From Deltaproteobacteria bacterium (GTDB lineage: Bacteria; Myxococcota_A; Polyangia; Polyangiales; JADJMO01), in the NCBI GenBank assembly GCA_025363655.1, contig JANYDK010000033.1, positions 1 to 34,608 on the forward strand: DNA of 34,608 bases, read 5' to 3'. Shown piece after piece: positions 25,633 through 33,090 of this stretch. The notes beneath the pieces were generated by a model. It was not told where the DNA came from and did not search any database. It saw nothing but the letters and a program-made list of their open reading frames with translations. The position numbers and the translations under genes were made by a program. Each line of letters begins with the position of its first letter. Position 1 is the first letter of the stretch.

Positions 25633-26919
25633 TCAGCGGCAATCCGGCGCGTTGCACGCCGCTAGCTTGATCAGCGCCGCGGCCGGCGACTGTGCCGAGG
25701 CCGGGAGCGGAACCGCGGGCGGATGCGCGAAGAGGGTGAGCGCAGCGGCGAGGACGAGCGCGGCGATCGCGATGGCGTAGGACGCGCGCGCCTCGCCTCG
25801 CTGCGCGGACTTGGGCGTCAGCATCGGGGCCGGCGTCGGCGTTGCCGTATGCGACTGCGTTGCCGTCTGCGACTGCGTCGGCATGTCCTTCGGCGCGAGC
25901 GCGATCGGCGGCGCGGTCTGCACGACGTTGGTGACGACCCGCGGCGCGAGCGCGCCGAGCGCACGCAGCTTCCCGACGATTGCGCGATTGGTTCGGCGTC
26001 GATCGGAGGAGAAGAGTCTCCTCATGCACGCGCGTACATCGCGCGTCGACGTCGGCACCGTGTGGGCGAGGAAGGCCTCGAGCTCGAGCCGCAGCACCTC
26101 CATGGAGGGTGTTCGTTTCGCGACGTCGAGGGAGAGCGCCCGTTCGATGATCGCGGACAGCTCGGCGGGCACACTCGGGTCCACGGAGAGCACGCTCGGT
26201 GCACCTACGCCGGTGAGGGTGGCGAAGGCCTTGGTCTCCGTGTTCCCCGCGAAGAGTCGACGACCGGTGGCGGCCTGCCAGAGGAGCGCGCCCATCGCGT
26301 AGACGTCGGCGCGGCGATCGAACGAGTGGCCGCCGAGGACCTCCGGCGCCATGTACGTGATGCGACCGCTCACGAGCGAGTGGCACTCGACCTCCGCGCG
26401 CGTCAGGCCGTAGTCGCAGACCTTCACGCGACCGCTGTGCGACACGACGATGTTCTGCGGCGAGACGTCACGGTGGACGAGGCCGAGCGGTCGCCCTTCG
26501 CCGTCGCGGAGCTCGTGGAGGTGATGGAGTCCGGCGCAGGCGTCGGCGAGGATGCGCAGGTGCACGTGCAGCGCGAGCCCATGCCAGAGACCGGCGCGGC
26601 GCCCGAGGTTGTAGAGGGAAGTTCCGGCGACGTACTCCATCGCGAGGAAGGGCACGCCCTCTTCGACGCCGGACTCGAGCCCACGCACGAGGTTCGGGTG
26701 CGAGAGCAAGAGCGCGATGGCGACCTCCCGCTCGAACATCGTCATCAGCCTCGGATCCTTGCGCAGCACGTCGTGCGGTCGCTTGACGACGACGAGGCGG
26801 ACCCGTCGCCCCGCAGGAGCCCGCGTCGCGAGGTGCACCTCGCCCATTCCGCCACGGCCGAGGAGCAAGATGTCGGCGCGGCGAATCGCGGGCTCGGCGG
26901 TGATGGGTTGACTCATCAT
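25633..26919 (-). CDS. Membrane-anchored Ser/Thr protein kinase with DYG variant
   Basis: A 428-residue kinase. The glycine loop G21-R-G-G-M-G26, Lys46 (VVVK), the catalytic loop H139-R-D141-V-S-P-Q-N146, D159-Y-G161 and A181-P-E183 are all present. Two family-typical changes are notable: the usual Lys of HRDLKxxN is Ser, as in many myxobacterial kinases, and DFG is DYG. After a Thr/Pro/Gln-rich juxtamembrane linker (QSQTATQSHTATPTP) one membrane helix follows (YAIAIAALVLAAALTLF) with a short tail. It probably phosphorylates cytosolic partners. The gene is divergent from a second kinase. The start is one of two adjacent ATGs (26919, 26916). Confidence 0.92.
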   Translation of the reverse strand: MMSQPITAEPAIRRADILLLGRGGMGEVHLATRAPAGRRVRLVVVKRPHDVLRKDPRLMTMFEREVAIALLLSHPNLVRGLESGVEEGVPFLAMEYVAGTSLYNLGRRAGLWHGLALHVHLRILADACAGLHHLHELRDGEGRPLGLVHRDVSPQNIVVSHSGRVKVCDYGLTRAEVECHSLVSGRITYMAPEVLGGHSFDRRADVYAMGALLWQAATGRRLFAGNTETKAFATLTGVGAPSVLSVDPSVPAELSAIIERALSLDVAKRTPSMEVLRLELEAFLAHTVPTSTRDVRACMRRLFSSDRRRTNRAIVGKLRALGALAPRVVTNVVQTAPPIALAPKDMPTQSQTATQSHTATPTPAPMLTPKSAQRGEARASYAIAIAALVLAAALTLFAHPPAVPLPASAQSPAAALIKLAACNAPDCR

Positions 26920-27235
26920 GTGTGAAGCCGAGCAGAGCAACGCACATACCGTCGTGGAAAGAGCGCGTGAAACTACATGCGCTCAGCTTCGCGAAGCCGA
27001 CGGCGCTGGGGCGTTATGCGCGGATAGCGACGTTGTGCCGCCGCACACGGAAGAACGATTGGCTCCCATACATCGCCGCGCTCGTCGTGCACGGCGCGAT
27101 GGGTCGCGGCGCTCTGGCGCGATCGAGGCAATGTGTCGCCCCTGCCTCCCGGGCGCTGGTACGAAGGGTCGAAAGGTCGGGCCATACCTGGCTCGCGCCG
27201 ACGTTGGCTCCGGGCTTGCTCACGGTGTGGCGAAG
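26920..27235. other. Divergent intergenic region between two kinase genes
   Basis: This is 316 bases without a convincing gene. The frame of the downstream kinase is open through it but encodes Arg/Ala-rich, non-conserved sequence with poor start signals. It must carry promoters for both kinases, but no clear -35/-10 pair, repeat or operator could be identified. Confidence 0.5.
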
Positions 27236-28294
27236 ATGTCGAGCGCGCTTTCCTTCGCCGTACCTTTCGTGCCTCACGTCGGCGCCCTCGTCGACCAGAA
27301 GTACGTGCTGACGCGCCGGATCGGCAGCGGAGGGATGGGCGAGGTGTGGTCGGCGCGTCATTGCGCGCTCGGCCACGAGCTGGCGGTGAAGTTCCTCATC
27401 CTCGAGCTCGACGATTTCACGGGCAACGCAGGCCACGACGCGTCGCTCTCACGGTTTCAGCTCGAGGCGCGGCTCGCCGCCAACCTCTCGCGACGAACCA
27501 AGCACATCGCCTCCGTCTTCGATTTCGGGATGGAGGGCGCTACCGCGTATCTGGTGATGGAGCTCATCGAGGGGGTCTGCCTCGAAGCGGTCATCGGCGA
27601 AGGCGAGCACCGCGACCTCGGCTTCGTCGCGACGGTGATCTCGCAGCTCGCGCTCGGGCTCTCCGTCGCGCATGGGCACGGGGTCGTGCACCGGGACCTC
27701 AAGCCCGGCAACGTCATGCTGGTGCGTGGAGACGAGCCTGGCACGCCGTTGGTCAAGATCCTCGACTTCGGCATCGGCAAGGTCCTGCCGTCGGCGAATT
27801 CCGCACGCACCGCGCATCCGGCGCCGGCGCTGGTCCGGCACCGCACCCGCTACGGCGTACCCATCGGAACGCCCGAGTACATGAGCCCCGAGCAAGGTCT
27901 CGCGCACGGTGACGTCGACTACCGTTGCGACGTCTGGGCGCTCGCGGTCGTCGCCTACGAGATGCTCACGGGAGTCTGCCCCTTCGAGGGCGCCAGCATC
28001 GGCGAGACGATGGCGCGCGTGCGAACGCGCTCTGGCTGGTCGGTCCTCGTCCATCGGCCTGACCTGCCCGAAGCGGCCACCAGGCTATTCGAGACCGCCT
28101 TCGCGCTCGATCTCGACGAGAGATTCCGCTCGGCGCTCGCATTCTCCGCCGCCCTCTCCAGCCTCGCAGAGGCCGCCGAGGTCCAGACGTCTTCGGGCAC
28201 CCCTAGAGCCGTGAAGAGCTCCATCTGCGCCGGCGACCCGGTGCCGGGGCCGGTCTCGCGCGTGCGTCCATGCAAGACCACCGAGCCCGGCTAG
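27236..28294 (+). CDS. Soluble Ser/Thr protein kinase
   Basis: A 352-residue kinase that begins about 20 residues before the domain. It has G30-S-G-G-M-G35, Lys52 (AVK), H142-R-D144-L-K146-P-G-N149, D167-F-G169 and S197-P-E199, so all catalytic residues are present and it should be active. A His-rich/basic insertion lies between DFG and the SPE motif (RTAHPAPALVRHRTRYG). The tail after the kinase is short (about 60 residues), low in structure, and has no membrane helix or sensor domain. The kinase is probably recruited by partners. It is divergently paired with the membrane kinase, so a two-kinase cascade is conceivable. The upstream open frame is not used because it lacks domain similarity. 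Confidence 0.9.
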   Translation: MSSALSFAVPFVPHVGALVDQKYVLTRRIGSGGMGEVWSARHCALGHELAVKFLILELDDFTGNAGHDASLSRFQLEARLAANLSRRTKHIASVFDFGMEGATAYLVMELIEGVCLEAVIGEGEHRDLGFVATVISQLALGLSVAHGHGVVHRDLKPGNVMLVRGDEPGTPLVKILDFGIGKVLPSANSARTAHPAPALVRHRTRYGVPIGTPEYMSPEQGLAHGDVDYRCDVWALAVVAYEMLTGVCPFEGASIGETMARVRTRSGWSVLVHRPDLPEAATRLFETAFALDLDERFRSALAFSAALSSLAEAAEVQTSSGTPRAVKSSICAGDPVPGPVSRVRPCKTTEPG

Positions 28295-28640: not shown

Positions 28641-28646
28641 GGGAGG
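28641..28646 (+). promoter_or_regulatory. Strong ribosome binding site
   Basis: GGGAGG lies 8 bases before the ATG at 28655. It is one of the best Shine-Dalgarno matches in the window and implies high translation of the Cys-periodic lipoprotein operon. Confidence 0.75.
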
Positions 28647-28654
28647 ATTGTTCC

Positions 28655-29884
28655 ATGACTCGAATCACCAAGCTGGCTCTGTTGACGATGACGGTATGCG
28701 TGACCGCGGCCTCCGGAGGCTGCATCGCGACCAACTCGGGAGTCGCCAGTGGGACGAGCGAGGGCTGTGAAGCGATCACCGGCGACAAGATCGACGACGG
28801 GCTCGACGTCGACGCGACGGTGCGCGTCTTCATGCAGGCGTCGGTCGACTTCCGCGGTATCGGCCGCACGACCAAGGTTGCCGTCAAGACCGCGTGCGTG
28901 AACATCGCCAAAGATCTCGGCGTGGCCGACTCGTGGACTGCCCTCGGCGACACCGACGACTCGATCTCCAACAAGAGCGCGACCGGCGCCTGCGACGTGG
29001 CCACCGCGCGCATTCGAGCGATCATGGAGGCGCCAGGCTCGGCCACGGCGAGCTTCGCGATCGTGAGCTCGCCGGGCGCATGTCGCATCGACTTCGCCGC
29101 CCAAGCGGCGTGCGACGCCAAGTGCAAGGCTGAGGCAGTCTGTGACTCCGGCAAGGTCGAGACGCGCTGCACGCCGGGCTCGCTCGCCTGCGTCTGCGAC
29201 GAGAAGTGCAAGGCCACCTCGTACTGTGAGGGCACGGTCGAGCTCGAAGCCAGCTGCGGAGGCTCCTGCGAGGCGACCTGCACCGGTCACTGCGCCGGCA
29301 CTTGCACGACCAAGGAAGGCAAGAAGAGCAACAACGACCCCAGCTGCCACGGCAAGTGCAGCACGACGTGCACCGGCACCTGCTCGGGTCGCTGCAAGGT
29401 CGAGGTCGAAGCCGGAATCTCTTGCGGCACCAAGGTCCGTTGCAAGGGCGAGTGCACCAGCACGTACACCGATCCGGTCTGCGAGACGCAGATCACGCCG
29501 CCGGTCTGCAAGGTCGATGCGTCTTGCGAAGATTCCTGCACTGCGAGCGTCACCGCGCACGCCGTCTGCGATCCCCCGCACGTCGAGATCTACGCCGATG
29601 CCTCGGTCAGCGCCGACGTCTCCAAGCTCATCGCCACGCTCGACGCCAACCTGCCGCCGCTCGTCGCGGTCGCCGAGCAACAGGGCAAGCTCGCGCTCGA
29701 CGCCGGGACCAAGCTGGTGTCGACCGGTCAGACGCTGGTCGGCTCGGTGACCAAGCTCACCGCCAAGTCGGTCGTCTGTACGGCGGCCGCGGCGAAGGCC
29801 TCGGTCGAAGCGGCGGCCTCGCTCAGCATCTCGGTGAAGGCGAGCGCCGATCTCACCGCCGTCTGCCGTACGCACGCCTCGTGA
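28655..29884 (+). CDS. Lipoprotein with (CX3)4C cysteine ladders
   Basis: A 409-residue lipoprotein (SGGC lipobox, Cys23). Residues 35-150 are an ordinary mixed region. Cysteines follow, and between residues 201 and 247 they form two blocks in which every fourth residue is Cys: C201, 205, 209, 213, 217 and C231, 235, 239, 243, 247, exactly 30 residues apart. CxxxC periodicity would put the thiols on one face of a helix, or form a tight disulfide or metal ladder. There is no CxxCH heme motif. The C-terminal 110 residues are Cys-poor and helical (VSADVSKLIATLDANLPPLV). The function is unknown. It overlaps the next gene by GTGA, so both are made together. Confidence 0.85.
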   Translation: MTRITKLALLTMTVCVTAASGGCIATNSGVASGTSEGCEAITGDKIDDGLDVDATVRVFMQASVDFRGIGRTTKVAVKTACVNIAKDLGVADSWTALGDTDDSISNKSATGACDVATARIRAIMEAPGSATASFAIVSSPGACRIDFAAQAACDAKCKAEAVCDSGKVETRCTPGSLACVCDEKCKATSYCEGTVELEASCGGSCEATCTGHCAGTCTTKEGKKSNNDPSCHGKCSTTCTGTCSGRCKVEVEAGISCGTKVRCKGECTSTYTDPVCETQITPPVCKVDASCEDSCTASVTAHAVCDPPHVEIYADASVSADVSKLIATLDANLPPLVAVAEQQGKLALDAGTKLVSTGQTLVGSVTKLTAKSVVCTAAAAKASVEAAASLSISVKASADLTAVCRTHAS

Positions 29885-30624
29885 CGAACTGGGATTCGCG
29901 GCGGCTCGCGCTCCTCTCGGGCGTGCTCTCGGGCGTGCTCGCCGCGTCCTTCGTGCTCGTCACTCCCCGGACGGCTTCGGCCGCGCCGGGGGGTGGGTAC
30001 ACGTCGGATCGCCCGCTCGAGTGGGCGTGGATCAACGCCGAGACGGGCTTCTCCGCGGCCAATCTCCGCACGTTCACCGCCAACAGCGAGACCTTGGCGG
30101 TGGGGATCGTCCCCACCTCCGGCATCGGCCCGACCGCGGGCGTCGGGCTCGGAGTGCGCTTCGTCTTCATCACCCTCGGGCTGCGCGGCCGCGTCGCCAG
30201 CCTGACGGGCGACACGCCGACGCGAGGCTCACGCGCCTGGCAGCTCTGGACACTGGCGGCCGAGCTCGGCATTCGCATCCCGCTCAAGCGCGTCGAGCCG
30301 TACTTCACGTTCGGCGTCGGCTACGCCTCGATCGGCGGCTTCGGCGACGCGCTCGACGGGCTCAAGGGCGGGCTCGACGTCAGCGGCGCAAGCCTCCGCG
30401 TCGGCTTCGGCGTCGACTACTACCTCACCGACACGTTCAGCATCGGCGCCAACCTGACGACCGAGGCGCTGATCATGGCACGCAAGGGCGTCTCGCTCGG
30501 TAGCCTCGCGGAGGCCAAGAGCGTCGGCACCATCGACGAGGCGCAGGCGCGCATTCTCGAGGCAAACGGATCGAGCGTGGGGACGATGCTGACGATCACC
30601 CTCGGGGCGGGCGTGCATTTTTAG
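29881..30624 (+). CDS. Outer-membrane beta-barrel protein coupled to the Cys-ladder lipoprotein
   Basis: A 247-residue protein starting with GTG inside the previous stop (GTGA). It has a Sec signal (LLSGVLSGVLAASFVLVTP ... ASA) and then alternating barrel strands: TAGVGLGVRFVFITLGLRGR, LWTLAAELGIRIPLK, VEPYFTFGVGYASIGG, ASLRVGFGVDYYLTDTFSIG and a final MLTITLGAGVHF with terminal Phe. The length fits 8-10 strands. No ligand-binding motif is evident. Because of the overlap it is most likely the membrane partner of the lipoprotein, for example as a channel or exporter for it. That is inference only. Confidence 0.83.
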   Translation: MTNWDSRRLALLSGVLSGVLAASFVLVTPRTASAAPGGGYTSDRPLEWAWINAETGFSAANLRTFTANSETLAVGIVPTSGIGPTAGVGLGVRFVFITLGLRGRVASLTGDTPTRGSRAWQLWTLAAELGIRIPLKRVEPYFTFGVGYASIGGFGDALDGLKGGLDVSGASLRVGFGVDYYLTDTFSIGANLTTEALIMARKGVSLGSLAEAKSVGTIDEAQARILEANGSSVGTMLTITLGAGVHF

Positions 30625-32389: not shown

Positions 32390-32694
32390 GGGCAGTACTC
32401 GTTAGCGTTCGACGCGGCCCCTCGCTCGATGCCCTCTGCGTCAGAGAATTCGTCGCCCGCAAGTTGGTCGGGTTGGTCGACGACTCATCCCGGAGGGTCC
32501 GGGTCGGCGCCAGATCCCGAGCCGACTGACCGCCGAGCATGGATCGAGTCAGGAAAAACCGACGACGAGTGCTTCAAAAGATGGACGCTATGTCCCCGGG
32601 ACCTATCCGAGTGACCTTGAAGCTCACGCGTGAACTGCTTTGGGCGAGCTGAGTCGGCCGGACGGCGACTCGTCCATCCTTTTGACTGAGCTTC

Positions 32695-32890
32695 AGTCGG
32701 CCCGACGCCGACTCGCCGAGCCTTCCCGGTCACACGCGTCGGTCGGACGCCGACTCGTCGAGACTTCCCGGTCACTCGCGTCGGCTGGGCGCCGACTCGC
32801 CGAGCCTTTCCGGTCACACGCGTCGGTTGGGCGCCGACTCGTCGAGACTTCGTGGTGACAGACGTCGGTCGGACGGCGACTCGCGGACCT
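32695..32890. repeat. 42-bp tandem repeat array with a hairpin in each unit
   Basis: Four complete units at 32695-32736, 32737-32778, 32779-32820 and 32821-32862, plus a partial fifth from 32863. Every unit starts with GTCGG-N7-CCGAC, a 5-bp stem whose 7-base loop varies while the arms are kept (the fifth differs slightly). Units 1 and 3 share CGCCGAGCC, and units 2 and 4 share CGTCGAGAC, so the array is really a duplicated 84-bp pair. A related but diverged unit starts near 32651. The units are contiguous without spacers, so this is not a CRISPR. Confidence 0.88.
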
Positions 32891-32949
32891 CGAGAAGAGA
32901 GCGGACTCGGTCTCGAGCTGACTCGTCGAGGGTCTGGGGACGCGACCCG

Positions 32950-33090
32950 TCAGCTCGGCCTTGCGGGCAGACTCTTCGGATTCGCTCCCGTCAGCTGCTT
33001 GATCGAATCCCACAGCAATTGCTTGGCATACGTCGGATTGTGCACGCCGAGGTCCTTGCTACGGGCGATGACGAGATGCGACGCAGAGCG
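32950..33090 (-). pseudogene. C-terminal copy 2, multiheme-cytochrome-like tail
   Basis: Minus strand, about 47 codons ending SHLVIARSKDLGVHNPTYAK, then QLLWDSIKQLTGANPKSLPA and RPS-stop. From memory, the GVHNPxYxxxLLxxxI form is typical of the extreme C-terminus of multiheme c-type cytochromes. No CxxCH motif remains and the N-terminal part is gone, so this is a relic. It contains the full copy-1 sequence. Confidence 0.55.

Follow-up and report, generated by a model that had tools for sequence, protein, structure and literature searches.

The window, by which we mean the whole stretch of 34,608 nucleotides analysed here, carries on its forward strand a gene for a 409-residue protein with a very high cysteine content (P0001) and, overlapping its end, a gene for an outer-membrane beta-barrel (P0002). 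The two genes and the features assigned to them are the following.

28641 to 28646 (approximate), forward strand: GGGAGG, read directly as the ribosome-binding site that precedes the ATG of the Cys-ladder gene by 8 nt.
28655 to 29884, forward strand: Cys-ladder lipoprotein gene (P0001, 409 aa), from the reading of the ORF and the comparison of 104 distinct relatives.
28655 to 28723, forward strand: predicted signal peptide and lipobox, aa 1-23, with the putative lipid-attached Cys23, by inspection and from alignments A1/A3.
28814 to 29029, forward strand: N-terminal helices of the predicted base, aa 54-125, from the AlphaFold2 model (pLDDT mostly 72-95).
29081 to 29569, forward strand: mirror-symmetric Cys core, C143 to C305, with 13 Cys pairs summing to 448, from the Cys positions and the mirrored secondary structure.
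29255 to 29305, forward strand: left (CX3)4C block, C201-C217, read directly; tip of the putative outgoing arm.
29306 to 29344, forward strand: central loop TTKEGKKSNNDPS, the putative hairpin turn, with the mirror axis passing through it at residue 224.
29345 to 29395, forward strand: right (CX3)4C block, C231-C247, read directly; tip of the putative returning arm.
29612 to 29821, forward strand: C-terminal long helices of the predicted base, aa 320-389, from the AlphaFold2 model.
29822 to 29881, forward strand: C-terminal tail, aa 390-409, from alignment A3; of low confidence in the model.
29881 to 30624, forward strand: outer-membrane beta-barrel gene (P0002), with a GTGA overlap, matched by Pfam OMP_b-brl; a private neighbour, the adjacency not being conserved.

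Upstream of the Cys-ladder gene, positions 25633-28294 hold two divergent Ser/Thr kinase-like genes. At about 32485-33013 there are frames with repeated RRVG-PT / SRRPTDA units, which suggest a short tandem DNA repeat.

The ribosome-binding site of P0001 is strong, as an earlier note on this DNA had remarked, and the reading of the product as a lipoprotein made there is borne out by its N-terminus. A hydrophobic stretch precedes a lipobox of the form SGG-C23 (by inspection), C23 is invariant or nearly so in alignments A1 and A3, and an equivalent cysteine is present in most relatives. From its signal peptide, lipobox and cysteine, P0001 is predicted to be a bacterial lipoprotein. At the other end of the protein, the relatives keep a tail in which Ser and Val alternate (ASVSVSVEVSVSVSASAG); in P0001 it is degenerate (29822-29881). 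This tail could act as an amphipathic beta-strand for assembly.

Two segments of P0001, CGGSCEATCTGHCAGTC (aa 201-217) and CHGKCSTTCTGTCSGRC (aa 231-247), each follow the pattern (CX3)4C, with 30 residues from one start to the other. The earlier note had singled out these blocks of five cysteines at every fourth residue, and the pattern does lie beyond chance, but the blocks are just the tip of a larger mirror pattern and the number of CX3C blocks varies among relatives. Of the 27 core cysteines, 26 are mirrored about residue 224, forming pairs whose positions sum to 448. From the outermost inwards, the pairs are 143-305, 153-295, 157-291, 163-285, 172-276, 181-267, 185-263, 191-257, 201-247, 205-243, 209-239, 213-235 and 217-231. 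Counted from C143, the intervals are 10,4,6,9,(7+2),4,6,10,4,4,4,4,14,4,4,4,4,10,6,4,9,9,6,4,10. When these intervals were shuffled (2000 times), at most 20 of the 26 cysteines were mirrored, and random placement of the cysteines (2000 times) gave at most 16. C179 is the sole core cysteine without a partner and breaks the symmetry. C179 and C404 both lack an equivalent in L005, the closest relative (40% identity); the two may be paired together, be free, or link two molecules.

Direct repeats were considered as the origin of the pattern and rejected, the best translational shift accounting for just 10 of the 27 core cysteines. Tandem duplication leads to translational and not to mirror repetition, and random placement likewise yields no mirror. 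If, on the other hand, a chain runs out and back antiparallel with each cysteine facing a partner, mirror spacing follows, together with matched insertion or loss of rungs in both arms. The observed pattern suggests such an antiparallel pairing of two arms.

Of 56 related genomes, 48 contain relatives of the Cys protein, and often several of them. The copies of the host genome are on contigs C62 (the window), C147, C130 and C89. At one locus (L103), four Cys-ladder genes are clustered on both strands. A profile search of 282 genomes of the phylum gave strong matches in the window's own class of Myxococcota only. Weak matches in other classes were discarded as relatives, those examined being short simple-repeat frames. 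The contigs with relatives are assigned to Polyangiaceae, Sandaracinaceae, Nannocystaceae, Kofleriaceae and other Myxococcota/Deltaproteobacteria, and include isolates of Polyangium and Sorangium.

The mirror rule holds across the family. Exact mirroring holds for 2706 of the 2786 core cysteines in the 104 distinct relatives. The two arms are identical in 90 of these proteins (87 when the core is set by sequence landmarks) and unequal in 14-17, mostly by one residue. The number and position of rungs vary while the rule is kept: 23 distinct exact patterns of spacing were counted, and comparison between different patterns gave no arm matches (0/506). Paralogue L003, for example, is an exact palindrome of 37 intervals, against a shuffle maximum of 17. 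Repeats of uniform spacing, as in L139, are palindromic in a trivial way, so that the evidential weight lies on the irregular intervals (6, 8, 9, 10, 13 and 14), whose mirroring is no less strict than that of the regular ones. As many of the sequences are closely related, a flank-based tree, from sequence outside most of the core, served to count the pattern changes. Thirty of the 35 changes on this tree affected both arms, 22 of them leading straight to a new exact mirror; the other five affected one arm, each being a single-residue shift.

Structure prediction gave mirrored elements as well, in two members. In the AlphaFold2 model of P0001 (36 sequences; mean pLDDT 66.7, pTM 0.53), strands E134-139/E309-314, E142-144/E304-306, E167-173/E275-281 and E176-181/E267-272 are mirrored about 448, and so are the helices H147-158/H289-301, on which the CX3C pairs 153/157 and 291/295 lie. 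The base of the model is made up of long helices (54-87, 106-125, 320-367 and 370-389), and the tip (184-264) has a pLDDT below 50. For the relative L034, modelled from a gap-poor alignment (pLDDT 75), the base is again mirrored about the protein's own Cys axis, 431. Its tip was predicted with confidence (pLDDT 92-95), with strands mirrored about 435, one four-residue step off the Cys axis; in this register C187 and C220 would therefore be unpaired. Residue covariation across the arms was too weak, and the sequences too few, to pick a register.

The tip strands of L034 lie 12 residues apart (191/203 and 228/240), as in a 12-residue coil, so that a small solenoid is possible. The core might be a beta-solenoid or another repeat fold, with CxGx units stacked along each arm, disulfides inside the arms and a mirror that results from the packing of two solenoid halves. 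Independent halves, however, need not change length together, yet 30 of the 35 changes were concerted, and the irregular spacings are mirrored with the same strictness as the regular ones. We consider such a fold rather unlikely. Foldseek and VIA searches returned weak matches only, to helical bundles and flagellins; for L034, flagellin/FlgL-type structures were on top, with E values of 0.14 and above and a VIA Z of about 4-5. The flagellin/FlgL hairpin fold resembles the models in having N- and C-terminal helices as a base and a beta region between them, but flagellins have no Cys ladder or lipid anchor and the fold match is not significant.

At four loci in different assemblies (L093, L095, L100 and L112), a gene for a fusion of VKOR with a thioredoxin/DsbA domain lies directly downstream of the Cys-ladder gene on the same strand. 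By a published account (PMC11208910), VKOR regenerates DsbA, and DsbA in turn inserts disulfides. The four relatives belong to a subfamily with the spacing 14,6,13,...; two further loci of this subfamily (L107 and L110) had no detected VKOR-DsbA neighbour. The linkage is found in this one subfamily only and is absent at the window locus; in the host genome a VKOR-DsbA fusion is encoded by a different contig. Since VKOR genes number only 0-3 per related genome, we infer that four direct adjacencies are unlikely to have arisen by chance. As genes were delimited with a simple rule based on codon position, context beyond the immediate neighbours is approximate. No other neighbour is general: a Mrp-type ATPase gene was seen at 3 loci, DUF4920 at 5, an OmpA-type protein at 6 and a rhodanese at 4. 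The DUF4920 gene stands beside Cys-ladder genes with the 25-interval pattern (L083, L084, L070 and L079), and a gene for an OmpA-domain outer-membrane protein, in one orientation or the other, adjoins the Cys-ladder gene at L039, L050, L055, L108 and L111. At L035 the adjoining gene encodes an ArsP-type permease.

These neighbours bear on two other readings of the cysteines. The earlier note had proposed a metal-binding ladder; in that case the protein would be a metallothionein-like store, with reduced cysteines binding soft metals on an exported lipoprotein. The very high cysteine content and the ArsP-type permease at one locus would fit this. However, the protein is exported into an oxidising compartment, metal clusters do not need mirror order, and none of the metallothionein models of Pfam and NCBIfam matched. 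Mirror order, export and the VKOR-DsbA gene beside four relatives together favour disulfides over metal, and metal binding now seems quite improbable. A ladder of disulfides might also serve as a redox reservoir, either as a thiol/disulfide buffer or as a relay of oxidising equivalents along the envelope. Such a role is in line with the number of disulfides predicted for each molecule (13 or more) and with the genetic link to VKOR-DsbA at four loci, but most loci have no conserved oxidoreductase partner, and the strict geometry suggests that the disulfides are structural. We regard this role as unlikely.

The barrel gene is real and overlaps the Cys-ladder gene as the earlier note had stated, the TGA stop (29882-29884) sharing GTGA with the GTG start at 29881. 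P0002, of 247 residues, begins with a good signal peptide. Its match to Pfam OMP_b-brl (E 5e-10) scores 40.2 bits, above the gathering cut-off of 28.7. Relatives of the barrel occur in 30 of the 56 related genomes. Among about 100 Cys-gene loci, none other than the window's own had a barrel relative of the P0002 type, and no CxGxC-rich ORF was present near 19 barrel loci of related genomes. As neither gene's relatives adjoin the other's elsewhere, the pairing is private to the host genome. The partnership of barrel and lipoprotein, which the earlier note had put forward as a candidate two-part envelope system and had made dependent on their co-occurrence, was therefore rejected as a conserved system: among the loci examined, the two genes adjoin in the window only. 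The GTGA overlap implies co-translation in the host genome, and a private interaction between the two products in the host species is conceivable, but a two-part system as the explanation of the Cys protein is very unlikely.

P0001 has no Pfam match and no NCBIfam match at E values up to 1. No Pfam or NCBIfam family covers it, and the reading of the Cys pattern as an undescribed one is supported. Matches to the Pfam models Bactofilin and CinA_KH were isolated, in one or two members. In the PDB there was no convincing sequence relative among solved structures (best E 0.58). TIGR04201 (TraA repeats) and other NCBIfam models of Cys-rich repeats did not match P0001 at E up to 1, and none of 21 members matched TIGR04201 at E up to 0.1. 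Six of the 21 members had a weak match to TIGR04114 (best E 0.017), a model of the CXXX-repeat family targeted by radical SAM enzymes, as would be expected of a precursor for radical-SAM peptide modification. These matches are nevertheless not significant and are explained by the common C-x-x-x repeats, P0001 itself has no TIGR04114 match, and no radical SAM gene was found among the 20 adjacent downstream genes scanned, which leaves this reading hardly any probability.

A second Cys-rich family (L150-L155 and L159-L173) consists of proteins of about 300 residues with an N-terminal signal peptide, and a C-terminal hydrophobic segment with an Arg tail that resembles MYXO-CTERM, without an NCBIfam match. 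The Cys spacing of these proteins is nearly mirrored, with 28-32 of about 35 cysteines in place when one residue of tolerance is allowed; the comparison with shuffles covered exact matches, which exceed the shuffle maximum in some members only. The family may follow the same ladder principle with a C-terminal membrane anchor.

Several known systems share single traits with P0001. The closest precedents are the theta-defensin ladders and the stalk proposed for TraA, and P0001 has the defining features, at sequence level, of neither. TraA of Myxococcus is a surface protein whose Cys-rich region has been proposed to form a rigid stalk (PMC3325183). TraA (TIGR04201, MYXO-CTERM) is likewise myxobacterial, but it has tandem repeats, a C-terminal tag as anchor and a PA14 domain, whereas the Cys-ladder protein is mirror-ordered. 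The small Tim proteins, with their twin CX3C helical hairpins, recall C153xxxC157 and C291xxxC295 on the two mirrored predicted helices. Only this one segment of the Cys core is comparable, however, and no sequence relation was found.

In theta-defensins, protegrin and tachyplesin, an antiparallel hairpin is held by cross-strand disulfides whose positions have a constant sum. The Cys positions and the predicted base of the Cys-ladder proteins obey the same rule of constant i+j, the bonds being predicted and the tip of L034 being off by 4. Those peptides have about 18 residues and 2-3 disulfides at every second residue, in contrast to a Cys-ladder core of about 160 residues with about 13 predicted rungs, mixed spacing, an anchor and a helical base. 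Theta-defensins are also small macrocyclic peptides, unlike the linear P0001 of 409 residues.

The reading we favour, with a probability of about 0.68, is that P0001 forms a giant hairpin, with helices at its base and cystine rungs holding its stalk together, and that it is probably a rigid spacer of the envelope. The protein would be exported, anchored by lipid at Cys23 and folded as one long hairpin, whose base would consist of the long helices of the N- and C-terminal parts. From there the Cys core would run to the tip loop around residue 224 and return straight, the arms being antiparallel, so that each cysteine of the outgoing arm would lie opposite its mirror cysteine on the returning arm, giving about 13 rungs. 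Oxidation of the facing cysteines into a cystine ladder would be the task of the disulfide machinery of the periplasm, for which some relatives would have a VKOR-DsbA fusion of their own. Both the cross-arm disulfides and their pairing are deduced from Cys positions. The resulting stalk would need no hydrophobic core, and its length would change by whole rungs gained or lost in both arms at once. Judged from this architecture, the protein most likely serves the envelope as a spacer or stalk that is stiff and resists proteases. As a rod it might measure 10-20 nm, a guess in the upper range that multiplies arm length by about 0.33 nm.

We consider it fairly probable that the family as a whole represents a giant cystine ladder of open chain, with about 9-18 rungs bolting two arms together and with whole rungs gained or lost in both arms at once, present in multiple copies in one class and provided with its own VKOR-DsbA oxidase in some lineages. 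No description of a family with mirror-spaced cysteines was found in the open-access literature (subscription papers lay outside the search), and we rate the architecture, with its predicted disulfides, as new with respect to open-access full texts.

Sequence alone rarely allows disulfide connectivity to be predicted; here the mirror spacing of the cysteines does so for each rung in more than 100 proteins. A vague guess of a metal ladder on a pore is thereby replaced by a claim that a single mass-spectrometry experiment can test. If the prediction is true, these proteins would be modular, length-tunable rods without a core, held by cystines, and as natural substrates would make very high demands on disulfide formation by bacterial VKOR-DsbA. 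The class that encodes them consists of predatory, multicellular bacteria with a poorly known envelope, of which such rods would probably be rigid spacers.
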